Made by a program: the position numbers and the translations under genes
From: Marinobacter alexandrii
GTDB taxonomy: Bacteria; Bacteroidota; Bacteroidia; Cytophagales; Cyclobacteriaceae
Assembly: GCA_039984955.1 (NCBI GenBank)
Contig: JBDWTN010000007.1
Location: forward strand, 1,992,501 to 2,056,500
Length of the DNA stretch: 64,000 nucleotides
Direction: 5' to 3'
The notes under the pieces: generated by a model
The model's input: only the letters and a program-made list of their open reading frames with translations
The model's database searches: none
What the model was told of the DNA's origin: nothing
In this document: piece by piece, positions 24,926 through 36,444 of the stretch
Numbering within the stretch: position 1 is the stretch's first letter
Layout: each line of letters begins with the position of its first letter

Positions 24926-27900
24926 ATGAAGTACAGACTCTGTTTTCTAGTTCTGCTAAACTGGTGGCACGCCACTAGTCAGGACAATAAGAGCTTCAAG
25001 AATTTTAATGTTGAGGATGGGCTTTCCTACAGCTTGGTTTTTGAAATTATCAAGGACCAATACGGTTTCATGTGGTTTGGAACCACTGATGGGCTGAATA
25101 AGTTTGATGGCTATGAATTCACGGTCTATCAAAACATTCCAGGTGATACGACCAGCCTTCCTGACAATAGCATATGGGGACTTTTAGAGGATTCAAAAGG
25201 TAACATTTGGATCGGAACCGATGGGGGTGGCCTATCCTTTTTCAATAGGGAAAAAGAAACCTTTTATACATATAAGCATGATGCGGACAACCCTAATAGT
25301 CTTGTACATAATTCTGTTAATTCGATAATTGAAGACAGAACCGGGGCACTATGGATCGGGACTTTTGGAGGAGGAATCTCACATGAGTCGAGTCCGGGTG
25401 TTTTTGAAAATTTTGTCCACAACGAAGAAGATACGACATCCCTCAGTCACAACTTTGTACATCAGATTTTTGAAGATCAAGATGGCCAAATATGGGCTGG
25501 AACGAAGAGTGGCCTAAATTTATTTGATCCCATCACCCGGAGTTTTAAACGAATTACCAGAGATAAATATGATTTGGAAAATGATAATGTCTTGTCAATC
25601 GCACAAGACAAAAACGGTCTTCTTTGGCTGGGTACCTGGGAAGCAGGGCTTATTTCATTTAATAAAGAAAGCGACATCTTCACCAGTTATACACTGACCG
25701 AAGAGTTGAATAATCGAGTGGCATACGTCACCGTAGATTCTGATAATACCGTTTGGGCTGGCTATGTAGGTGGCGGATTAATCTCCATTGATGAATCAAA
25801 TACACTATCCACTAGCATAAATGATCCTCAAAACTCTTCGAGTATTGCGAATAATAGTGTTTGGATGATTTATGAAGACGATCTAAAAAACATCTGGGTT
25901 GGAACGGAAGGAGGGGTCTCCGTTTTTAACCTTAATCAAAAACCTATTAATGCTCTAACTGCATCTGATCTCAGTCCAGCATTTAGAAGTAATGTCATTA
26001 CAAGTTTTAGTGAGACACAGGAAGGAATTTTATTTTCAACTGAAGCAGAAGTCGGTCTACAAACTAAAGAATCAGTAAAAAAGATTATTGAAGTACCTGA
26101 TATCTGGTCAATGTTACATTCAACAGGAAATGAAATTTGGGTTTCATCTTATGGACATGGGGTTTTTCGATATGATGCTAATTACAAATTAATTCACAAC
26201 TACCTAAATCCGATAAATAAATCTATTGAAAATGCTACTTATCTATTTGAAGACAAAAGTGGGATAGTCTGGATAGGTACCTTTGGAGAAGGTTTGTTTT
26301 CATACGATCCTAAGGCAGACTACTTTATGTTTTATGCTCTTCTCGATTCCGGAAATCATGATTCTCCTCCTGTATTGAATATGATAGACGAGTCAAATGG
26401 CACCTTATGGATTGGCACATATAATAAAGGACTAATCAAGCTAAATGTAGAGAAAGGATTAATCGAAAGAATCGACACTGAAAGTAAAACTCCAATAAGT
26501 CACAACACCGTTCTAAGCTTGCACTTAGATCAAGAAGGCTTTCTCTGGATCGGTACGGATGGAGGTGGACTTAACTGCCTGAACACTAAAACTGGAATGG
26601 TTACTCTGAAAACCACACATGATGGATTACCTAGCAACGTAATTCTTGGAATTCTAGAAGATGATGACAAAAATCTTTGGTTGAGCACAAATTCGGGCAT
26701 ATCAAAATTCAACACGCAGCTTAGCTCCTTTGTAAATTATGATCAATCCCATGGGTTAGCTTCAAAAGGGTTCAATCCTGATGCTTTTTTCAAAGATTCT
26801 TCTGGCCAATTTTTTTTTGGCTCGGGTAATGGTTTCAATTTTTTTCATCCAGATAGTATCCGACCATCAACATACTTTCCTCCTGTTTTTTTTAGTGACT
26901 TCAAAGTTCTTAATAAGTCCGTTCATTTAGCAGAAGGGCTATTAAACAAACATATAAATCTGGTAGAAACGATCTCACTAAATTATAAGCAGAATTTTTT
27001 CACCTTAAACTTTGCGGCATTAGAATATTTCGCACCTGAAAAAATCGACTATGCGTATCAGCTAGATGGTTTTAGCTCAGATTGGATTTATACGCCTGCT
27101 TCCAACCGACAAGCAACTTTCACTAATTTGGATCATGGCGAATACACCTTAAACGTCAAGGCATCTAATAGTGATGGGTTTTGGGGTGATAATATCAAAT
27201 CAACAAGACTAGTAATTCTACCTCCACCTTGGAAAACATGGTGGGCTTATGCGCTTTACGGAGTATCATTCATCGCTGTTTCCTTTGCAATGGTACGGAT
27301 GATAAACGTTAGGCAACAGTTGAAATCCTCGTTGAGGCTTGAACAGCTGGAGAGAAAAAAAATGGAAGAAATAGATCATTTAAAATCCCGATTCTTTGCT
27401 GGAATTTCTCATGAATTTCGTACGCCCCTTACGTTAATCTCTTCTCCAATTGATCAGTTAATCAGAAAATTCAAAAGCAACCACGAAGTACGCTGGCCTC
27501 TAGAATTAGTCAAGAGAAATGCAGACCGCCTTCTAAGACAAATAAATCAGCTTTTAGATCTCTCAAAGATTGAAGCAGGTAAGCTAAGACTACAGGTAAG
27601 CAAAAGTGACATAATTAACTGGGTTAAAATCACTGCATCTTCGTTTGAGTCAAAGGCTGCAAATGAAGACATTGATTTTTCTGTATCCCTACCAGAAGAA
27701 CCTATAGTCATGTTTTATGATAAAAATAAAGTTGAGCAAGTACTAATCAACCTGCTATCTAATGCTTTCAAACACACGAATCCTGGAGGGAACATACGAT
27801 TATCTGTTGCACACAGCAATAGTAATATTGCTCTAGAAGTAGCTAATGATGGCCTTGAAATACCTAAAGAATATCAGGAGAAAATATTTGGTCGATTCTA

Positions 27901-28912
27901 CCAGATCGGGCAAACAAAAAGGCCGGTTGAAGGCAGTGGAATTGGTTTGGCTTTAGTAAAAGAGTTTATAGAATTACATCACGGTTCTGTTGAAGTTCGT
28001 CGCGTCGATCCATGGACAGTATTTGCACTATCCATCCCTTCTTCAGATTCTGCATATGTTGAAGATGATCGTGTAACTATTGAGGACACAGAAGTATTCA
28101 AGGCAATACGACAGCAGGATGAAGAAAATGAACCTCTAGGCAAACAAATTGAAGGCACTGAAGAGCTGCCTACTCTACTCATTGTTGAAGATAATTTGGA
28201 TTTGAGATCTTACATGGCATTGCAGTTAGCAAAAGAGTATGAAGTTATACAGGCAGTAAATGGTCAGGAAGGCCTGGAAGTAGCCAACTCTCAAATACCT
28301 GATTTAATAATAACCGATCTAATGATGCCAGAGATGGATGGCATTGAAATGCTGCAAAAAATAAGAATTGACCACAAAACAAATCACATCCCCATCATCA
28401 TGCTCACAGCAAAAGCAGAAAAAGAATCTAGATTAGAAGGATTGGAAAAAGGTGCAGACCACTACTTGAATAAACCATTTGATGTTGAAGAGTTAATAAT
28501 AAGGTGCAGAAGTCTCCTTCATCAACGAAGAAGAATTAGAGAGCACTATCATAGCGAATTTCTCATCAACCCAAAAGCTGAAGATATCCCATCGATGAAT
28601 GATCTTTTTTTAGAACAGGCAGTTGATGTCATCGAAAGTCACCTTAGCAACCATGAATTTTCTGTAGATCAATTTGCAAAAGAATTAGCCATGAGCCGCG
28701 TCCAACTTCACCGCAAAATGAAAGCGATAATTGGATGCTCCGCTTCTGAATTCTTGAGACACTATCGCCTAAAAAAAGCATTCCGCCTTTTGAAAAAAAA
28801 GACAGGATCAGTTTCTCAAATTGCCTATTCTGTAGGTTTTAATAATCTTTCTTATTTCACCAAAGCATTCAAAGAAGTCTATCATAAGAACCCTTCACAA
28901 ATTGGAGATTAA
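24926..28912 (+). CDS. Hybrid two-component system sensor/regulator (HTCS)
   Basis: Its 1328 residues form a one-protein signalling system. A signal peptide is followed by a periplasmic sensor of two stacked beta-propellers (about 25-690) with repeated G(L/F)xWIGT motifs such as FMWFGTTDGLNKFDG. A Y_Y_Y domain (about 690-765) and one membrane helix (WWAYALYGVSFIAVSFAMV) follow. The cytoplasmic part has HisKA with His829 (ISHEFRTPLT), HATPase (NLLSNAFKHTNPGG, GSGIGLAL), a receiver with Asp1131 (ITDLMMPEMDG) and an AraC-type HTH (FAKELAMSRVQLHRKM, AYSVGFNNLSYFTKAFKE). HTCS proteins usually control polysaccharide-use loci, but no susC/susD or glycosidase gene is adjacent, so its target and ligand are open. 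Confidence 0.96.
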   Translation: MKYRLCFLVLLNWWHATSQDNKSFKNFNVEDGLSYSLVFEIIKDQYGFMWFGTTDGLNKFDGYEFTVYQNIPGDTTSLPDNSIWGLLEDSKGNIWIGTDGGGLSFFNREKETFYTYKHDADNPNSLVHNSVNSIIEDRTGALWIGTFGGGISHESSPGVFENFVHNEEDTTSLSHNFVHQIFEDQDGQIWAGTKSGLNLFDPITRSFKRITRDKYDLENDNVLSIAQDKNGLLWLGTWEAGLISFNKESDIFTSYTLTEELNNRVAYVTVDSDNTVWAGYVGGGLISIDESNTLSTSINDPQNSSSIANNSVWMIYEDDLKNIWVGTEGGVSVFNLNQKPINALTASDLSPAFRSNVITSFSETQEGILFSTEAEVGLQTKESVKKIIEVPDIWSMLHSTGNEIWVSSYGHGVFRYDANYKLIHNYLNPINKSIENATYLFEDKSGIVWIGTFGEGLFSYDPKADYFMFYALLDSGNHDSPPVLNMIDESNGTLWIGTYNKGLIKLNVEKGLIERIDTESKTPISHNTVLSLHLDQEGFLWIGTDGGGLNCLNTKTGMVTLKTTHDGLPSNVILGILEDDDKNLWLSTNSGISKFNTQLSSFVNYDQSHGLASKGFNPDAFFKDSSGQFFFGSGNGFNFFHPDSIRPSTYFPPVFFSDFKVLNKSVHLAEGLLNKHINLVETISLNYKQNFFTLNFAALEYFAPEKIDYAYQLDGFSSDWIYTPASNRQATFTNLDHGEYTLNVKASNSDGFWGDNIKSTRLVILPPPWKTWWAYALYGVSFIAVSFAMVRMINVRQQLKSSLRLEQLERKKMEEIDHLKSRFFAGISHEFRTPLTLISSPIDQLIRKFKSNHEVRWPLELVKRNADRLLRQINQLLDLSKIEAGKLRLQVSKSDIINWVKITASSFESKAANEDIDFSVSLPEEPIVMFYDKNKVEQVLINLLSNAFKHTNPGGNIRLSVAHSNSNIALEVANDGLEIPKEYQEKIFGRFYQIGQTKRPVEGSGIGLALVKEFIELHHGSVEVRRVDPWTVFALSIPSSDSAYVEDDRVTIEDTEVFKAIRQQDEENEPLGKQIEGTEELPTLLIVEDNLDLRSYMALQLAKEYEVIQAVNGQEGLEVANSQIPDLIITDLMMPEMDGIEMLQKIRIDHKTNHIPIIMLTAKAEKESRLEGLEKGADHYLNKPFDVEELIIRCRSLLHQRRRIREHYHSEFLINPKAEDIPSMNDLFLEQAVDVIESHLSNHEFSVDQFAKELAMSRVQLHRKMKAIIGCSASEFLRHYRLKKAFRLLKKKTGSVSQIAYSVGFNNLSYFTKAFKEVYHKNPSQIGD

Positions 28913-29037
28913 CTCATCAAATACTTTACTGCTTCTCTCAAAACAGATGTAACATCTGTACTAAACCTTGAAACACTTGTGGCAAACATTCCTCTCATTG
29001 GACTCTAGCTTGGTATCTGAAATAAAATCAGAATATC

Positions 29038-29831
29038 ATGAAAAAATTACTCCTTCTTTTCTTAGTCATTCTTACCCAGAAAATAACCGCTCAAGATGTT
29101 ATTGTAATGAAAAATGGGGATGAAATGAATGTAATTGTACTTGAGGTTGCTTCTGAAGCAATCAAGTATAAAAAACACGAAAATCAACAAGGACCTACCT
29201 ATACTGTTGAGAAAGTTGACGTCTTTATGATTCGATATGAAAATGGTACCAAAGATGTTTTCAATTCTCAAGAAAAAGCTCCCGTTCATCCTGCAAAAAG
29301 CTCCTCTTCATTTCCGAAAAGTTCATTCAATATCAACCCTCTTGGACTATTACAATTTGGACCAATTTTTCAGTATGAGACCAAAATCGGATCTTCTAGC
29401 TATCTGGTTCCTTATTTCCGCTATGCATATGCTGGCCTTGCCACGCATGCCGTTTGGACCGGTTTTGAAGAAGATAGTGAGCTTTCAGCATCCTCAGCCG
29501 CGGTTGGTATAGGAATTAAAATTTTACATCAAGTAATAACTCCTGGTATTATGGAGGAATACTGGATTACAGCTGGACCACTGCCCGATATGATGTAGGT
29601 GAATCCGACGCAACTGAAGAAAAAGCCACCAATATGGGGGTTGTTTCTAATCTCGGATATCGATGGAGATCTTCCCGTGACACCTACATAAACCTCGGTC
29701 TTCTGGCCGGAGCTGCTTTTACATTAAAAGATGAGGAACGTTTCATTTCAGATGGATCTCTATATGAAGAATATGATGGTGTCACCATCTTCGCTATGAT
29801 TGAATTGTCATTTGGATGGGACTTCCGATGA
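29038..29831 (+). pseudogene. Exported hypothetical protein with frameshift
   Basis: Frame one (29038-29598) has a signal peptide (MKKLLLLFLVILTQKITAQ), an N-terminal module (MKNGDEMNVIVLEV to VFMIRYENGTKDVF) and the start of a beta-rich region (PLGLLQFGPIFQYETKIGSS). At about 29530-29545 the sense passes to the next frame, which reads SNNSWYYGGILDYSWTTARY, then NLGYRW and INLGLLAGAAF, ending at 29831. The joined product looks like a small outer-membrane beta-barrel-type protein. A one-base loss near CATCAAGT would explain it: a decayed gene, a sequencing error, or phase variation. The N-terminal module is paralogous to the next gene, and they overlap by 4 bp (ATGA). Confidence 0.7.
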
Positions 29832-30430
29832 ACATAAGAAAGTTGCTTATCATACTTCTAAGCATATCATTTATGGTCTCCGCTGCTCAAGACATTATTA
29901 CTAAAAGAGATGGTAATGATATTAAATCGATTGTTATTGAAATTTTGCCTAATGCCGTAAAATACAGAAACCACGATAATCAGAAAGGCCCAATATATAC
30001 ACTAAATAAAAGCGAGGTATTTATGATTAAATATGAAAATGGATCCAAAGACATATTCGCTTCGCAAACAGCCAGTGATTTGATAGGGTCTAAGTCAGCA
30101 ACCATCTATTTCTATAGACCTAAGAAATTTGCCAGTGGCAGGACTAAAATCATCGTTGGGACAGTTGAACCTGATGAAGTAGTTGTCACTCTCAAGAATG
30201 GGAGTTGGTACAAAATGACTTATGAGCATTTAGGAGAACGAAATTTCGTCGCAGGTGTTTTTTCGCTAAATACAGAAACTTATAAACTGAACATAATTGG
30301 AGATAAAACTTATTACATCAAATGTTCTGTTTTAACAAAAGGTTTACTAGTAATGGCAGAGCTTGAATTTATTGACAAAACAATTGCGTTAAAAGAAATG
30401 GAAGGGCTAAGGAAACAGAAAGTACCTTGA
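29828..30430 (+). CDS. Exported DUF2846-like protein, paralogous N-terminus
   Basis: The ATG at 29828 overlaps the previous stop (ATGA) and gives 200 residues; the upstream ATG at 29816 is less likely. A signal peptide ends near VSAAQ. Residues about 20-75 (TKRDGNDIKSIVIEI, GPIYTLNKSEVFMIKYENGS) align along their length with the N-terminal module of the previous gene. The C-terminal part (ATIYFYRPKKFASG, then TYEHLGERNF) is a DUF2846-type domain of unknown function, different from the beta-rich C-terminus upstream. So the two genes share one domain and swap the other. Confidence 0.75.
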   Translation: MNIRKLLIILLSISFMVSAAQDIITKRDGNDIKSIVIEILPNAVKYRNHDNQKGPIYTLNKSEVFMIKYENGSKDIFASQTASDLIGSKSATIYFYRPKKFASGRTKIIVGTVEPDEVVVTLKNGSWYKMTYEHLGERNFVAGVFSLNTETYKLNIIGDKTYYIKCSVLTKGLLVMAELEFIDKTIALKEMEGLRKQKVP

Positions 30431-30439
30431 TTTTGAAAA

Positions 30440-30562
30440 CTATTTTCTCCCATTCTCATGACCACCATTATGTGGCCTAATTCTATTGCTCAGATTACTC
30501 GATTGGCCTTTATAATATTTATCTAGAGACGAAGAGTAAAGTATATACACGAAGTAGGCCAT
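30440..30562 (-). pseudogene. Truncated GIY-YIG nuclease copy
   Basis: From ATG 30562 the minus strand reads MAYFVYILYSSSLDKYYKGQ and stops after 40 codons at 30440-30442 (HENGRK*). It aligns with the first half of the GIY-YIG gene at 30691-30939 at both protein and DNA level, and the catalytic C-terminal half is missing. It is a broken duplicate. Confidence 0.8.
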
Positions 30563-30632
30563 AAAATAAAAACCCTAACAGAGATAATTCTGTCAGGGTA
30601 AATTAAAAACTAATTTTGGGTGGAAGATGGGG
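30454..30632. repeat. First copy of a duplicated GIY-YIG/tRNA-end segment
   Basis: This segment is a diverged direct copy of 30831-30990. Both contain the GIY-YIG gene start, a nearly identical stretch around 30507-30550, a small hairpin, and the 15-mer GGGTGGAAGATGGGG (30618-30632 here, 30976-30990 in the other). In the second copy that 15-mer is the 3' end of tRNA-His. The 343 bp between the two 15-mers hold one intact GIY-YIG gene plus hairpins (GCTGAC/GTCAGC at about 30634-30651 and CGAGA..GAGC/GCTC..TCTCG after it). Confidence 0.75.
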
Positions 30633-30690
30633 TGCTGACGCTCTGGTCAGCATCGAGATAAGAGCATAGCTCTTCGTCTCGTCTCGAACT

Positions 30691-30939
30691 TCAGCTATAT
30701 TTTTTGATAAATGATTCTAATTTATCTCTGTTCATATTTTTGAGCTTTCGCTCAAGTATGATGGCCTCTGAGCGTGTCCGTTTTTCAACGTTCCATACCA
30801 GCCTCCAAGGAACTCCTGATTTGGTGTATTTCTCATGACCACTATTATGTCGTCTAATCCTATCGTTCAGATCATTCGTTTGACCTTTATAATATTTATC
30901 TAGAGACGAAGAGTAAAGTATATACACGAAATAGATCAT
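30691..30939 (-). CDS. GIY-YIG endonuclease (small, UPF0213-like)
   Basis: I start at MIYFVYILYSSSLDKYYKGQ (30939), giving 82 residues. A longer reading from 31050 simply translates the tRNA-His gene and is rejected. The YVYIL...YYKG pattern is the GIY-YIG catalytic core, followed by the conserved Arg (DLNDRIRRHNSG), WRLVW and Glu of SEAIILERKLK. Such small nucleases are very common in Bacteroidota, often next to tRNA genes, and their role is not established. This one sits between two 15-bp copies of the tRNA-His 3' end, with a truncated sibling beyond. Confidence 0.85.
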   Translation of the reverse strand: MIYFVYILYSSSLDKYYKGQTNDLNDRIRRHNSGHEKYTKSGVPWRLVWNVEKRTRSEAIILERKLKNMNRDKLESFIKKYS

Positions 30940-30976
30940 AAAATGAAAAGCCCTGACATTATTGCCAAGGCTTTTG

Positions 30977-31051
30977 GGTGGAAGATGGGGCTCGAACCCA
31001 CGACCCTCGGTACCACAAACCGATGCTCTAACCAACTGAGCTACAACCACC
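30977..31051 (-). tRNA. tRNA-His (GTG)
   Basis: The minus strand folds as a tRNA: G-1 with 5' GTGGTTG, TAGCTCAG in the D arm, an anticodon loop TTGTGGT in a TCGGT/ACCGA stem (anticodon GTG), and the T arm GTGGG-TTCGAGC-CCCAT. Extra G-1 opposite C73 is the His identity element. The acceptor 3' strand is CTTCCAC, giving two U-U mismatches (5:68 and 6:67) where AA would be expected. CCA is not encoded. AAAAGCC...GGCTTTT just downstream (about 30942-30975) can form a terminator. Confidence 0.9.
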
Positions 31052-31222: not shown

Positions 31223-33349
31223 ATGAAAGGTTTATCTATTCTCATGAAGCTTGGCTTTTTGATTGTTGGTTTAATTAGCTCCTTTACACTTTATTCTCAA
31301 TCCAAAAAAGATAATTCGTATACCGTTGAAAAAGGATACATCGATTTGTCAAACTATAATCCACACGAAAATGACCCAATAGCCTTAAATGGAGATTGGG
31401 AGTTTTACTGGGAAACACTACTAGATCCTGCTGATTCAACTTACCAATCAGACTTGCTGGAGGCTACTTATTACACCGTGCCAGAAGGTTGGTCTGAAAA
31501 GAATGATGTCTATAATATAGGCATCAACAATTATGGGTATGGCTCCTACAGGCTAAACATACATTTTGGGAAACCTCAATTTAACTTGGGTCTCAAGGTT
31601 AGGTCATGGGGCCTAGCAAACAAGATTTTCATTAATGGAGAGGTTCTGGGACAATCGGGGCAAGTAGGAACTTCAACCACTAGCTGTGTGCCGGAATCTA
31701 AAGTAGAGGCTATTTCTTTTGACGCACCAGAAGGCACAGCGGAGATTATTATTCATTCCAGCAATTTTCATAACAGGGCAGGAGGGTTAGCCGCAGAAAT
31801 TGTTTTAGGCGATGGAGATGTTATTCAAGCTTCGAGACGAAACCTGGAATGGTTAGATCTATTTTTAGTAGGCTCCATTTTTATCATGGGTGTTTATCAT
31901 ATTGGTCTTTTCTTCGTAAGGAAGAAAACGTTCTCTCCTTTACTATTCGCTCTTTTTTGTTTCACGATAGCACTCAGAATTATCACCAATGAGAATTTCG
32001 GAACAGACATCATAACGATGAACGGCTTTCTACATCGTAAGATTGACTACTTAACCTATTATCTGGCTTTTGGTCTCTTCTTTTTTTACAGTACTCGGCT
32101 TTTTCACAAAGATGTTATTCCATGGGTAGTAAAAATTGCTCTAGGCTTCATCTTAATCTTTTCAATAGGAGTAGCAATTCTCCCAATGAAAGTTTACACG
32201 ATGGGACTCATTGCGTTTCAGCTCTTCACATTCGTAGCAATGTTGTATCTCACTTTTGTAATGATCCTAGCTACAATACGGAAAAGAGATGGTGCAAGAA
32301 TCTATCTTATTGGTTGGATTTTACTTTTCACCACAGGCATAAATGACTTACTTCATTTTTCTGGACTTATTGAAACCACTTCTCTTTCTCACATTGGAAT
32401 TCTTCTATTTATTCTTTCACAGGCTTTGTTGCTTATGTTCAGATACGAGAGATCCTTCAAACGAAGTTTTTATCTTGGAAGAAAGCTCAATCACGTAAAC
32501 AAGAATCTTGAAAAAATTGTAGCAAAGAGAACTAAGGATTTAGCGGAAAAGAATAAGAGCATAACAGAAAGTATCAGTTACGCAGAAAAAATTCAGACCG
32601 CTTTACTTCCACGAGAATCTGACATCAAAAAAATATTCCCCAATTCATTCATCGTATTAAAACCTAAGGATGTAGTCAGTGGTGATTTCTACTGGTTTGC
32701 ACACCTTGAAGAAACAAAAAGAGGTGCCGTTTCAATTATTGTTGCTGCTGATTGTACTGGTCATGGTCTTTCGGGAGCGCTAATGACCATGTCTGGGTCT
32801 ACTTCGTTGGATCAAATTGTAAACCTACAAGGGATAACTTCTCCAGATTCCATCGCTGCATCATTAAATAATTCCATTAGAAATCTCCTTCATCAAACTG
32901 ACTTACAGAACAGCAATCAAGATGGGATAGATGCTGCTATTTGCACCATATATCATGATGAAAAAATTGTAGAATATGCTGGAGCTAATGGTCCGTTAAT
33001 TTTTGTCAATGATGATGAAATAGAGACTATCTCTCCAACAAAAATCTCTTTGGGAGGTAATTCAATGCAAGTGGATAATAGTGTATTTCAAAAACATAGC
33101 TTTTCATTCGAGCAAAATGATGTTTCCATTTACTTATTTTCAGATGGGTACATCAATCAAGTCGGAAGCCCTAAAAACGAAGCATTTGGCATAACTCGTC
33201 TTAAAAAATTGATATTGAAAAATTCAAAAAGCAACCCAAGGGATAAAGCATTAGAATTTGATACCACCTTGGAAAATTGGATAATACAAGGAAAAGCAAA
33301 TCAATCTGATGATATGCTGATAATGGGGATCAACTTATCAAACACCTAA
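31223..33349 (+). CDS. 7TM receptor (7TMR-DISM type) with SpoIIE phosphatase
   Basis: This 708-residue membrane signalling protein starts with a signal-like segment. A periplasmic jelly-roll sensor follows (about 30-200, with PIALNGDWEFYWE and KVRSWGLANKIFING). About seven membrane helices (about 210-410, starting FLVGSIFIMGVYHIGLFF) and a coiled coil (NKNLEKIVAKRTKDLAEK) come next. The C-terminal PP2C-like SpoIIE phosphatase (about 450-708) has LKPKDVVSGDFYWFA, ADCTGHGLSGALMT and SDGYINQ, with the metal-binding Asp residues present. It probably turns an extracellular signal into dephosphorylation of an anti-sigma antagonist-like partner, but no STAS or HPK partner gene is adjacent. It converges on pyrC, with stops 7 bp apart. 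Confidence 0.9.
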   Translation: MKGLSILMKLGFLIVGLISSFTLYSQSKKDNSYTVEKGYIDLSNYNPHENDPIALNGDWEFYWETLLDPADSTYQSDLLEATYYTVPEGWSEKNDVYNIGINNYGYGSYRLNIHFGKPQFNLGLKVRSWGLANKIFINGEVLGQSGQVGTSTTSCVPESKVEAISFDAPEGTAEIIIHSSNFHNRAGGLAAEIVLGDGDVIQASRRNLEWLDLFLVGSIFIMGVYHIGLFFVRKKTFSPLLFALFCFTIALRIITNENFGTDIITMNGFLHRKIDYLTYYLAFGLFFFYSTRLFHKDVIPWVVKIALGFILIFSIGVAILPMKVYTMGLIAFQLFTFVAMLYLTFVMILATIRKRDGARIYLIGWILLFTTGINDLLHFSGLIETTSLSHIGILLFILSQALLLMFRYERSFKRSFYLGRKLNHVNKNLEKIVAKRTKDLAEKNKSITESISYAEKIQTALLPRESDIKKIFPNSFIVLKPKDVVSGDFYWFAHLEETKRGAVSIIVAADCTGHGLSGALMTMSGSTSLDQIVNLQGITSPDSIAASLNNSIRNLLHQTDLQNSNQDGIDAAICTIYHDEKIVEYAGANGPLIFVNDDEIETISPTKISLGGNSMQVDNSVFQKHSFSFEQNDVSIYLFSDGYINQVGSPKNEAFGITRLKKLILKNSKSNPRDKALEFDTTLENWIIQGKANQSDDMLIMGINLSNT

Positions 33350-33356
33350 TATTAGA

Positions 33357-34688
33357 CTAACGATCAAATGCAAGACGCTGACCCATCTTGCTTTCATTCA
33401 GCTCACCATTGTCATAAGCCAAGTGACCGGAAACAAAAGTCTTTTCTACACTTGACTTAAACCTGTGTCCCTCAAACGGAGACCAATTGCATTTTGCCAA
33501 AATATTTTCTTTAGTTACTTCCCAGGGCTTTTTCAAATTCACTAATGCAAAATCTGCGTAGTACCCTTCTCTGATATATCCTCGCTCTTTCACATCGAAA
33601 CATTCAGCCACCGCATGACTCGTTTTTTCTGCAATTCGCTCCAGCGAAATTTTACCTTGATGATAAAAATCTAGCATCGCCGTTAAAGTATGTTGAATGA
33701 GCGGGCCTCCTGAAGGTGCTTTTAGGTACTTATTATCTTTTTCTTGAATGGTATGGGGTGCATGATCCGTAGCGATTACATCGATCCTATTATCAAGCAA
33801 TGCTTCCCAAATTTCATCTCGATCTTGAGCCGTTTTCACTGCAGGATTCCATTTGATATAGGCGCCTTTCTCATCATAATCCTGATCCGAAAACCAGAGG
33901 TGATGAATACAGGCTTCAGATGTGATTCGCTTTTTACCTAGAGGTTCATCATTTGAAAAAAGATGTGTCTCCTTTCCAGTCGATATATGAAGAATATGTA
34001 GACGAGCATTATTCTTCTTCGCCAATTCAACAGCTTTGGAAGAGGATAAATAGCAAGCCTCCTCGTTTCGGATAAGAGGATGGCACTTAAACGGAATATC
34101 TTCTCCGTACTTTTCTATATATGCCTCCGTATTTGCACGAATAGTTGCTTCGTCCTCACAATGGGTCGCGATTAAAATAGGTGCATTTCTAAAGATATTC
34201 TCAAGTGTTTCAGGGTCATCAACCAGCATATTTCCTGTCGAAGAACCCATAAAAATTTTAATGCCACAAACAGACGCTGGATCTGTTTTTAGGACCTCAT
34301 CCAAATTATCATTCGTGCTGCCCATGTAAAAGGAATAGTTAGCCAAAGAATTCTTAGCCCCTATTTCATACTTCTTAGACAATAGCTCTTGGGTAATAGT
34401 TTGTGGGTTCACGTTCGGCATTTCCATGAATGATGTGACTCCACCAGCAACAGCCGCTCTGGATTCCGTGAAAATATTCCCTTTATGAGTTAATCCTGGC
34501 TCTCTGAAATGTACTTGATCATCAATCACCCCAGGAAATAGGTGAAGCCCTTCACCATCTATTAATTGATGATTTTCTGATAAAGTCAGCTGGCTTCCAA
34601 TTTTCTCTATTCGATCATTCTTAATCAGAACATCTCCATGAGCGATTTTTCCTTCATTTACAATTGCTACATTTTTAATCAAGTACAT
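33357..34688 (-). CDS. pyrC: Dihydroorotase (class I)
   Basis: This cytoplasmic zinc amidohydrolase of pyrimidine synthesis interconverts carbamoyl-aspartate and dihydroorotate. Its 443 residues show FPGVIDDQVHFREPGLTHKG, FMEMPNVNPQT, GIKIFMGSSTGN (candidate carbamylated Lys), ATHCEDEA, LHILHIST and ATDHAPH (catalytic Asp). The first metal-binding motif reads DxQVHFREPG, with Gln at the place of the first His of the usual HxH. I believe this variant is seen in Bacteroidota dihydroorotases, but it raises a question about the metal site. An allantoinase or hydantoinase relative is less likely, given the FREPG and TDHAPH motifs. Confidence 0.92.
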   Translation of the reverse strand: MYLIKNVAIVNEGKIAHGDVLIKNDRIEKIGSQLTLSENHQLIDGEGLHLFPGVIDDQVHFREPGLTHKGNIFTESRAAVAGGVTSFMEMPNVNPQTITQELLSKKYEIGAKNSLANYSFYMGSTNDNLDEVLKTDPASVCGIKIFMGSSTGNMLVDDPETLENIFRNAPILIATHCEDEATIRANTEAYIEKYGEDIPFKCHPLIRNEEACYLSSSKAVELAKKNNARLHILHISTGKETHLFSNDEPLGKKRITSEACIHHLWFSDQDYDEKGAYIKWNPAVKTAQDRDEIWEALLDNRIDVIATDHAPHTIQEKDNKYLKAPSGGPLIQHTLTAMLDFYHQGKISLERIAEKTSHAVAECFDVKERGYIREGYYADFALVNLKKPWEVTKENILAKCNWSPFEGHRFKSSVEKTFVSGHLAYDNGELNESKMGQRLAFDR

Positions 34689-34960
34689 ATCACTATTTTG
34701 TTATTTGATTTGAATATTCTGGAAACTCAGATGAAGAAGCGTTTTTTGCAAAATTTGTTTCAAAAAAAATGAAAGCTCAAAGAAAAAGTGAAAACCTTCG
34801 AAATACGATAAAAAGAGCTAATTATTAGTTTCTGGCTGCTTAAAATTTTTCCCTTGCCTTTTTTTGCTGCAATTATTTAAAGGAAACCGTATTTAATAAT
34901 TATACTTGTGTCAGAAAGATGGATATTTTATCTTTCTTTCCATAGCTGGTTGAAAAGATC

Positions 34961-34982
34961 TTGTGGGGCAAATGCCCCACAA
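34961..34982. terminator. Intrinsic-type hairpin
   Basis: TTGTGGGGCA-AA-TGCCCCACAA is a perfect inverted repeat between pyrC and the M28 peptidase gene, just after the peptidase stop in its direction. The T-run is weak. The rest of the 325-bp gap (34689-34960) is AT-rich and shows no gene. Confidence 0.6.
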
Positions 34983-35013
34983 TGATCGATTCTCACAACT
35001 TCTTCCAGTCTTC

Positions 35014-36444
35014 TCATTTATCTACCTTAACTCTTTCTGATCGATTTGCTACTTCCCAACCTGTGTGGAACACAAGTCTTGCTCTTTTTTCCATTGTTTC
35101 AAACTCAATCTTTTCTATCGTATCAGTCGATTTGTGATAATCAGGGTGTGTTCCATTAAAATAGAAAATGATTGGAATGTTATTCTTAGCAAAGTTGTAA
35201 TGATCTGATCGGTAGTAGAATCTATTCGGATCATTCTCATCATTATATGTGTAGTCCAGATTCAGATTTGTATATGTCTTGTTTACCTTTTCTGAAAGCT
35301 CATGTAACTCTGTAGACAGCTTATCAGAGCCAATCAAATAGATATAATCTGAAGCATCAGAATGCGCATCATCTACTCGACCCACCATATCAATGTTTAA
35401 GTTAGCAACGGTATTCTCCAATGGAAAAATCGGATCAGTATCCGTATAGTATCTAGACCCAAGTAATCCCTTTTCTTCACCTGTTACAGTCATAAATAGA
35501 ATACTCCTTTTCGGTCCTTTTTTCTTCTTTGCTGCTGTAGCAAAAGCTTCAGCGATTTCTAAAACCGTTACCGTTCCTGAACCATCATCATCAGCACCAT
35601 TGTAAACTTCCCCATCGATGATACCAACATGATCATAATGGGAGGTGATGATAAGAACCTCATCAGGCTTTTCTGTTCCTTTCATGAATCCAAGAACATT
35701 TTCCGTTCCAACTGGCTTGTCCAAATAGTCTGCATTGAGAATTACTTGCGTATTGTCTCCTGCTTTGATCTCTTCGAAATCTTTATCAAACATCCATGCT
35801 GCTAGAGACTTATCTGCGATAATCATTTTATCTGCAGTGTTATCTCTTGCATCAATTCCTAAGCTTGCGCGTTTCAAAAATGGACCAAATCTGCTTAATG
35901 TTGAGCTATACTCATCATCGTTTGTTACAACAATGATGAAGCCAATGGCTCCTGCTTCTTTTGCCTTATCAATTGTTTCTTGAAGTCCACCTAACTTTTC
36001 TGTTACATAAACCACATAAGATCCATCAAAGCCTTTCATTTCATCATCATCTTCTGATGCCATGACCACATTGATATACTCTTCTCCCATGGTCTCAGAT
36101 CTGGAGTAATAAACAAAATCTTCAAATCCAACCATCTTATCATCTCCTCTTTTCATATATACAGACCCTATAGAAGACTGTGTCAGGTTGAATTTCTGAA
36201 AGTACGATCCATCTACAGGTGGTTCCAAGCCCAGAGATTTAAAATGATTAGCAATGTACTCAGCAGCCATCTTCTGTCCTTTTGTTCCTGTTTCCCTTCC
36301 TTCGTACTCGTCAGATGCCAAGATTGAGAGGTGCTCTTTCAGGTCTTCGGAGGTAATTGTCTTAGCGTACTTAATGGCTGTTTTATCCTGTGCCAACAGT
36401 CCAAAGGCCACTATCAGGCCCAAAACGTAACTTATCTTTCTCAT
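35014..36444 (-). CDS. M28 family zinc aminopeptidase, exported
   Basis: The protein has 476 residues and a signal peptide (MRKISYVLGLIVAFGLLAQ). A PA-type insert (about 110-225) lies between the N-terminal segment (YIANHFKSLGLEPP) and the peptidase domain. The M28 zinc ligands are visible: SHYDHVG, NGADDDGSG, TGEEKGLLGS (catalytic Glu), LNIDMVGR and the terminal His in GTHPDYHKSTDT. This is the aminopeptidase S/Y-like arrangement with two zinc ions. It probably trims peptides in the periplasm or outside the cell. It stands alone on its strand. Confidence 0.93.
   Translation of the reverse strand: MRKISYVLGLIVAFGLLAQDKTAIKYAKTITSEDLKEHLSILASDEYEGRETGTKGQKMAAEYIANHFKSLGLEPPVDGSYFQKFNLTQSSIGSVYMKRGDDKMVGFEDFVYYSRSETMGEEYINVVMASEDDDEMKGFDGSYVVYVTEKLGGLQETIDKAKEAGAIGFIIVVTNDDEYSSTLSRFGPFLKRASLGIDARDNTADKMIIADKSLAAWMFDKDFEEIKAGDNTQVILNADYLDKPVGTENVLGFMKGTEKPDEVLIITSHYDHVGIIDGEVYNGADDDGSGTVTVLEIAEAFATAAKKKKGPKRSILFMTVTGEEKGLLGSRYYTDTDPIFPLENTVANLNIDMVGRVDDAHSDASDYIYLIGSDKLSTELHELSEKVNKTYTNLNLDYTYNDENDPNRFYYRSDHYNFAKNNIPIIFYFNGTHPDYHKSTDTIEKIEFETMEKRARLVFHTGWEVANRSERVKVDK

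Follow-up and report, generated by a model that had tools for sequence, protein, structure and literature searches.

Small GIY-YIG nuclease cassettes between an intact tRNA gene and a partial copy of it in Bacteroidota

Small GIY-YIG nuclease cassettes beside tRNA genes of Bacteroidota are likely to be a family of integrase-free mobile elements that restore their target and spread by recombination started by their nuclease. The element unit has about 315–380 bp and comprises a one-domain GIY-YIG gene, a hairpin and a piece of the host tRNA gene. Such units are exact inserts when compared with empty sites, form tandem arrays and recur at many tRNAs. The initial annotation of the locus studied here had proposed a small element without integrase, repeatedly inserted at the end of a tRNA gene that each insertion restores. 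Our results support this proposal, in which movement and cleavage are inferred, and extend it: some cassettes lie on the 5' side of the tRNA, many different tRNAs are targeted, and an arm of the displaced tRNA copy (the relic) is often swapped for a hairpin.

The window, i.e., the whole stretch of 64,000 nucleotides that we analysed, carries one cassette at its tRNA-His gene. Along the minus strand, tRNA-His is followed by a terminator-like hairpin, the GIY-YIG gene, a relic tRNA piece and a pair of hairpins, then by 15 nt that repeat the tRNA 3' end and by the decayed remains of a second unit:

30976-31050, minus strand: tRNA-His (GTG), intact, the target gene (ARAGORN; identical in the cassette-free genome G005)
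30946-30975, minus strand: putative terminator-like hairpin separating tRNA-His from the nuclease gene (read from the sequence)
30691-30939, minus strand: intact GIY-YIG nuclease gene, 82 aa, on the same strand as tRNA-His (ORF and PF01541)
30683-30689, minus strand: relic tRNA-His piece GTTCGAG, tRNA nt 54-60 (sequence)
30654-30681, minus strand: hairpin 1, in the T loop of the relic (DNA fold)
30633-30652, minus strand: hairpin 2, TGCTGACCAGAGCGTCAGCA (DNA fold; close likes in L015, L059 and L099)
30618-30632, minus strand: relic tRNA-His 3' end, nt 61-75, the distal copy, CCCCATCTTCCACCC (sequence repeat)
30573-30598, minus strand: putative terminator-like hairpin of the second unit (also read from the sequence)
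30440-30562, minus strand: second GIY-YIG gene, truncated after about 40 codons (ORF; PF01541, E 1.6e-6)

We confirmed the 15-nt copies GGGTGGAAGATGGGG previously noted at 30618-30632 and 30976-30990, the proximal one being the 3' end of tRNA-His, and the 343 bp between them do hold one intact GIY-YIG gene and two hairpins (30633-30681). The exact repeat extends to 19 nt (30614-30632 and 30972-30990). A search of the window for the 15-nt copy with up to three mismatches gave three matches, two of them exact, against 0.81 expected from shuffling. The stretch 30618-30690 (73 nt) folds with a z-score of -4.4, and none of 200 shuffles was equally stable. Its hairpins lie within the T loop of the broken tRNA-His copy, which lost no tRNA base, and hairpin 2 has one match in the own genome. 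For the 82-aa ORF we chose the ATG at 30939 as start; the PF01541 match of this gene covers 30691-30951 (E 4.1e-14). The only other ORF of at least 40 aa lying fully inside the cassette has 44 codons. A query with tRNA-His identified a single tRNA-His in the own genome, the weaker matches being tRNA-Asn, -Val and -Met. The second unit had been described as a truncated GIY-YIG gene with similar flanks. The truncated gene is there, and the flank is similar on the side facing the tRNA, but the distal flank is gone. The two nuclease genes are only 88% identical over 123 nt and are therefore not a recent pair.

Alleles without the cassette, as expected from the initial annotation, were found at tRNA-His and, in another genus, at tRNA-Pro (see below). 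In G005, which belongs to the same genus as the window, the tRNA query matches over 85 of 91 nt at 100%, including the entire tRNA-His. Gene order on both sides is that of the window (26735-30404 and 33361-35406 align at 71-73%), and the cassette is absent: tRNA-His and the upstream gene block are separated by about 95 nt, compared with about 571 nt in the window. The interval between tRNA-His and the dihydroorotase-like gene also holds a 7TMR-DISM/SpoIIE gene in the window (31223-33349), which is missing from that place in G005.

A scan of genome contigs yielded one relative with a like cassette at tRNA-His, a Marinoscillum metagenome-assembled genome (L015), whose nuclease is 71% identical to that of the window. 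Its distal copy, TCCGGTCTTCCA, matches its own tRNA, TCCGGTCTTCCACCC, and not the tRNA-His of the window. The own genome has a second case (L003), where a GIY-YIG gene lies between the intact tRNA-Leu and a duplicate of its 5' part. In this cassette (1478-1710, 5' layout) the nuclease is frame-shifted near its start and the hairpin lies in the D loop of the relic. Among 29 tRNA-His loci without a match to the window nuclease, four have a partial tRNA copy within 700 bp; we took those of L021, L028 and L038 as relics, while that of L018 is a 13-nt match. As aligned, the acceptor stem of tRNA-His contains two adjacent T-T mismatches (GTGGTTG vs CTTCCAC). Among the 31 tRNA-His genes of the L015-L045 set, 14 have these two strands, and others have fully paired stems. 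We rejected the mismatches as an insertion scar, since they are present at many cassette-free loci.

Within the order, 36 of 390 genomes were matched by the window protein (E ≤ 1e-14), and within the phylum 144 of 395 by a 22-sequence profile (E ≤ 1e-18), the own genome being counted in both. The 130 loci that we classified derive from the order search (41) and the phylum search (87), with L003 and L015 added. The phylum sample was drawn among the matches listed only, as 30 automatic loci and 60 fetched regions, with several of the final listed matches outside it. The set leaves out seven repeats of places already included and one further copy of the window locus. A locus was counted as a duplication when the nuclease gene separated an intact same-strand tRNA from a partial copy of that tRNA. 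This was the case for 94 of the 130 loci, so that the flanking repeats of the window recur widely. The intact tRNA is upstream in 70 of them (3' layout), downstream in 21 (5' layout) and on both sides in three. When the tRNAs were shuffled, partial copies turned up in 1, 0 and 1 loci out of the 110 that have a nearby tRNA on the same strand, and we therefore rejected chance, or a general trait of tRNA surroundings, as the source of the repeat.

The other 36 loci comprise 18 with a nearby tRNA in which no copy was found and 18 without tRNA. Contig ends cut nine of the 36; another eight carry a direct repeat of some sort around the gene (tRNA ends in several cases, a simple repeat in one), and the remaining 19 lack such repeats. 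In control windows placed 900-1300 bp away, flanking direct repeats were seen in 0 of 22 cases. The 94 loci are thus probably an undercount. There are 15 target labels, of which Cys (L144) probably stems from a relic mistaken for a tRNA.

The nuclease, a single GIY-YIG domain, is the sole protein family found in the cassettes, and an Rfam scan of 14 loci returned tRNAs only. Its fold was assigned from profile matches: among solved structures, UPF0213 proteins are nearest and SLX1 next. Residues S11, Y18, G20, R28, H32, E64 and K68 are invariant across 22 nuclease sequences. The nuclease is under purifying selection, with a dN/dS of 0.05-0.21 (median 0.09; 10 pairs below 97% identity, several of them related and of one genus). 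The best pair between families has 75% DNA identity, i.e., we caught no recent long jump. A search of phage DNA with a cassette query gave 47 records, and the 20 among the matches listed align to the tRNA part only. We found no match in plasmids with one nuclease protein query (1e-8), in viral contigs with two such queries or in PHROGs with four.

Under nuclease-started recombination, the nuclease would break or nick the anticodon, T or D arm of the tRNA gene, and a filled copy would serve as repair template and bring the cassette in. The matching tRNA piece at the cassette end would make the host tRNA complete again. The displaced part of the tRNA would remain as a relic, with one arm replaced or interrupted by the element hairpin, which may disarm the relic as a target. 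The cassette would part the intact tRNA copy from one of its old flanks, and the repeats would allow tandem multiplication or clean loss of units. Cleavage, the route of repair, the role of the hairpin and transfer between cells are what we infer here.

The relics inform on how the hairpin came to lie in the tRNA. We analysed junction hairpins in 77 of the 94 loci, those with a relic reaching a tRNA end. A junction stem of at least 6 bp is present in 63 of these 77 relics, and at 51 of the 77 junctions an equal stem was obtained in at most five of 100 shuffles. In 48 of the 77 loci the core TCCCG..CGGGA is found close to the nuclease gene; it occurs at different tRNAs and different arms. The next inward pair (pair 6) is complementary in 45 of 48 cases (A-T 31, C-G 14) and pair 7 in 32 of 34 (C-G 14, T-A 12, A-T 6). 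Hence, the stem of the core is conserved while its letters vary. Core density differs 26-fold with distance: 103 cores fall within 350 bp of the genes (86,259 bp in all) and 12 beyond 600 bp (263,539 bp).

Both hairpin flanks are in register with the tRNA in 50 of the 63 hairpin relics, i.e., each 9-nt flank matches it in at least 7 of 9 positions (the rate for random 9-mers is 0.086). Exactly 17 nt, the anticodon stem-loop, are missing in 28 of these 50 (Pro, Ala, Lys, Gln and Val). Another 11 lack 8 nt (ten at the T arm of Asp, one Pro), and the last 11 show variable loss. The window relic counts among the 63 but falls outside the 50, since its two hairpins are adjacent. For the 64 relics having another same-anticodon locus, we compared the relic pieces with tRNAs. 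Identity is 99.4% to the own tRNA and 85.5% to same-anticodon tRNAs of other loci, the own tRNA being best in 40 cases, tied in 24 and surpassed in none. The comparison favours the own tRNA, since pieces were picked by their match to it. Some hairpin-bearing tRNA relics have no nuclease gene (L021, L038 and extra copies in L061 and L069) and resemble non-autonomous derivatives.

The exact 17-nt exchange is a good reason to take seriously a rival reading, that of a structure-guided enzyme. It would recognise the arms of the tRNA gene folded as single-stranded DNA or cruciform and cut at the base of the stem, and the element hairpin would replace the cut arm, as in REP/RAYT transposition with a GIY-YIG enzyme for the Y1 transposase. 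We regard this as a tentative possibility; being a special case of nuclease-started recombination, its probability overlaps with the one that we give to the general reading. It fits the 28 of 63 hairpin relics that lack exactly the anticodon stem-loop with both flanks in register, the presence of a core with a compensatory stem at varied tRNAs and arms, and a profile near UPF0213 and then SLX1, a structure-specific nuclease. It also fits four other small GIY-YIG genes of the own genome (L001, L002, L005 and L007), which lie away from tRNAs and have direct repeats of 24-39 nt on both sides. These repeats are palindromic for L002 and L005, and three of them have 3, 5 and 6 copies in the genome (up to three mismatches). 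The uvrC-like gene L006 has no flanking direct repeat, and L009 has a 12-nt match only. We take the repeat-flanked genes as a lead for a link between hairpins and nucleases. However, the exact boundaries may have been inherited from one founder, 13 of the 63 relics have at least one flank out of register, and arm loss is not universal, e.g., the window relic retains all its bases. A joint and more specific claim seems somewhat doubtful to us: an SLX1-like one-domain GIY-YIG enzyme would remove an arm of the single-stranded folded tRNA gene at its base and insert its own hairpin, the cassette would supply the full tRNA, and the repeat-flanked GIY-YIG genes away from tRNAs would be of the same class, a GIY-YIG counterpart of REP/RAYT.

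We identified tandem arrays of 3-5 units in five genomes (four units in G113 and G120, three in G347 and G545, five in G700), with near-identical repeat units in G113 and G347. The shared tRNA pieces have 13-44 nt. Contig ends fall inside or near the cassettes of L124, L129, L136, L151, L158, L162, L164-L166 and L180. Such breaks are expected if tandem arrays break assemblies, in which case the cassette copy numbers of draft genomes may be too low. Arrays could also result from the integration of circles: an excised circle with one tRNA piece would recombine homologously into a tRNA gene, and the nuclease would aid release or resolution rather than cut the target. One crossover within the shared piece would yield both layouts, in line with the pieces and tandem units observed. 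Yet pieces of 13-44 nt are short for host homologous recombination, and sharing alone leaves the hairpins unexplained, which makes circle integration rather unlikely.

Filled and empty alleles at one site are also seen at the tRNA-Pro(GGG) locus of genus g93, which was matched in 47 of 48 genomes. We compared the best 30 of these 47; two genomes of the genus with a related nuclease (G284 and G320) fall outside them. Five of the best 30 of 47 are filled and 25 are empty. Four filled genomes carry the cassette once (G309, G194, G108 and G820) and G347 carries it three times. The insert has 316 bp (321 in G820, 949 in G347) and comes with a 27-nt duplication corresponding to tRNA nt 1-27. The ORFs of at least 40 aa in the L183 insert encode 83 aa and, overlapping on the opposite strand, 79 aa. 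Filled G309 and empty G162 show a single base difference over the upstream 60 nt, and are sisters on the upstream-flank tree, yet of opposite state. On this tree the filled state takes at least four changes, compared with a shuffled mean of 4.8, and a single clade of filled loci was rejected (AU p 6e-55).

The intact tRNA-Pro is identical in 28 of the best 30 of 47 loci, filled or empty alike, and the two others share a C-to-T change, one being filled and one empty. The tRNA-His is likewise identical in G000 and in cassette-free G005. Filled alleles differ from empty ones in the altered arm of the relic and in one changed flank of the intact tRNA, while the intact tRNA is the same. Hence, the tRNA itself shows no sign of classical self-protection by destruction of the site. 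Downstream of tRNA-Pro, close species carry one or the other of two unrelated terminator-like sequences, whatever the cassette state (L183, L188, L189 and L191), which suggests exchange of tRNA flanks.

In the ten pairs of filled genomes, cassette identity (75-98%) and flank identity (77-97%) rise together, which fits an old insertion with repeated loss. The G309 cassette shares 87-88% identity with the cassettes of G194 and G108 but 84% with that of G347, whereas for its flank G347 is the nearer one (85%, against 82-83% for G194 and G108); this is a weak hint of exchange. Gain and repeated loss account about equally well for the pattern in g93. Such observations lead to a reading in which each tRNA target received one ancient cassette, now immobile, inherited and often deleted between its repeats, with the nuclease kept for a benefit to the host. 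The low dN/dS agrees with it, and clean deletion would also give empty sites. The nuclease tree argues against it. Although poorly resolved (129 rows, 79 columns, 56 of 125 inner branches unresolved), this tree does not simply follow the hosts, in agreement with the initial annotation. Target tRNA requires 29 changes over 94 rows (shuffled mean 66, minimum 59), and host family 43 over the identical rows (shuffled 69, minimum 62). The nuclease thus appears to track the target tRNA more than the host family, with a weaker host signal also present. Hairpin core (11 changes, 59 rows; shuffled 25), lost arm (14, 72 rows; shuffled 30) and cassette side (12, 91 rows; shuffled 19) were mapped on the same tree. 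The 29 target changes suggest repeated moves to new tRNAs, although part of them may be tree error. The Pro target, moreover, was found across 13 families. Old immobile cassettes are therefore unlikely.

It is very improbable that the system works at the RNA level, with the nuclease acting on the tRNA and the altered-arm relic serving as a decoy or antitoxin RNA: relics do retain tRNA-like arms with the anticodon arm replaced, and nuclease gene and tRNA are co-stranded in 110 of the 112 loci with a nearby tRNA, but relics lack part of the acceptor stem or T arm, GIY-YIG enzymes are known as DNA nucleases, and arrays and empty sites are left unexplained.

Nuclease-started recombination has precedents, and nuclease-driven elements that restore their target are already known elsewhere. 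Like the cassettes of Bacteroidota, the genes of SegB and of other free-standing GIY-YIG homing endonucleases of T-even phages lie beside tRNA genes (PMC13096335, PMC2988022). The SegB report describes cleavage inside tRNA genes at the motif RAWTSGAAC, which we read as T-loop sequence, and a need for SegB in the tandem amplification of a tRNA-nuclease unit by recombination (PMC13096335). The Bacteroidota cassettes differ from SegB in being chromosomal and one-domain and in carrying a tRNA piece and a hairpin. We rejected T6 segB as the same element: the 222-aa protein scores 3.8 bits against the cassette nuclease profile, and the 1.7 kb around its gene hold no partial tRNA copy beyond inter-tRNA matches of 9-14 nt.

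In the mobile ORFs of fungal mitochondria (Allomyces, Glomus), as portrayed in part of the source, an endonuclease ORF is inserted with a copy of the end of an essential gene, the invaded gene is restored and the displaced end stays; in the atp6 case the endonuclease is of the LAGLIDADG family and the inserted and native ends are 63.5% identical (PMC3630166). The 94 loci with a duplication similarly have a nuclease ORF between a restored gene and its displaced end. The fungal elements invade protein genes and ours tRNA genes, and the arm-replacing hairpin has no described equivalent in the sections concerned (PMC3630166). Nor did we meet a foreign inserted end, the relic and intact pieces being near-identical and the own tRNA best or tied in 64 of 64 relics. 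We did not assign the cassettes to the class of SegB or of the fungal mobile ORFs, as the T6 segB locus lacks partial tRNA copies and the foreign fungal end is absent here.

Integrative elements attach at tRNA 3' ends and restore the tRNA by a block of identity. The cassettes resemble them in both the insertion at a tRNA gene and its restoration, but also occur on the 5' side. An integrase-driven element was rejected, as no integrase or recombinase fits in inserts of 316-321 bp. REP/RAYT systems consist of short hairpin repeats beside a small Y1 (HUH) transposase gene. Cassettes share the proximity of hairpins and nuclease gene, as seen in the junction stems and in core density, but have a GIY-YIG enzyme instead of a Y1 (HUH) transposase, and their hairpins lie inside tRNA relics. 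Group I introns occur in bacterial tRNA genes, the insertion place of the cassettes, and were rejected since the complete tRNA gene beside the cassette is uninterrupted and needs no splicing. With free-standing homing endonuclease genes the cassettes share the GIY-YIG nuclease and the existence of cassette-free alleles at the site.

We favour nuclease-started recombination because of the tRNA duplications, the empty sites, the arrays, the low dN/dS, the target-linked tree and, weakly, the sign of exchange in G309, together with the own-tRNA identity of relics, the opposite states of the sisters G309 and G162, and the SegB and fungal precedents. Against it count the intact tRNA shared by filled and empty alleles, the scattered filled state, the alike identities of cassette and flank, the best between-family nuclease pair of only 75% DNA identity, the 36 of 130 loci without duplication, and the few phage, plasmid and viral queries, which gave no cassette. 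The near-identity of relic and intact pieces also counts against it, since a cassette from a distant donor should carry a foreign piece. Some of the data fit loss as well as gain.

The open-licence full-text literature, in which most subscription journals and the preprints are not included, yielded no description of GIY-YIG/tRNA cassettes, and we know of no parallel to the arm swap. If our reading is true, these cassettes would be among the smallest self-contained mobile elements, consisting of a single domain of 80 residues, one hairpin and a tRNA piece borrowed from the host. They would occupy indispensable genes and yet leave them functional, and would explain many of the GIY-YIG genes and tRNA fragments near tRNA genes in Bacteroidota. 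How a nuclease coexists with its own intact target would then become testable.
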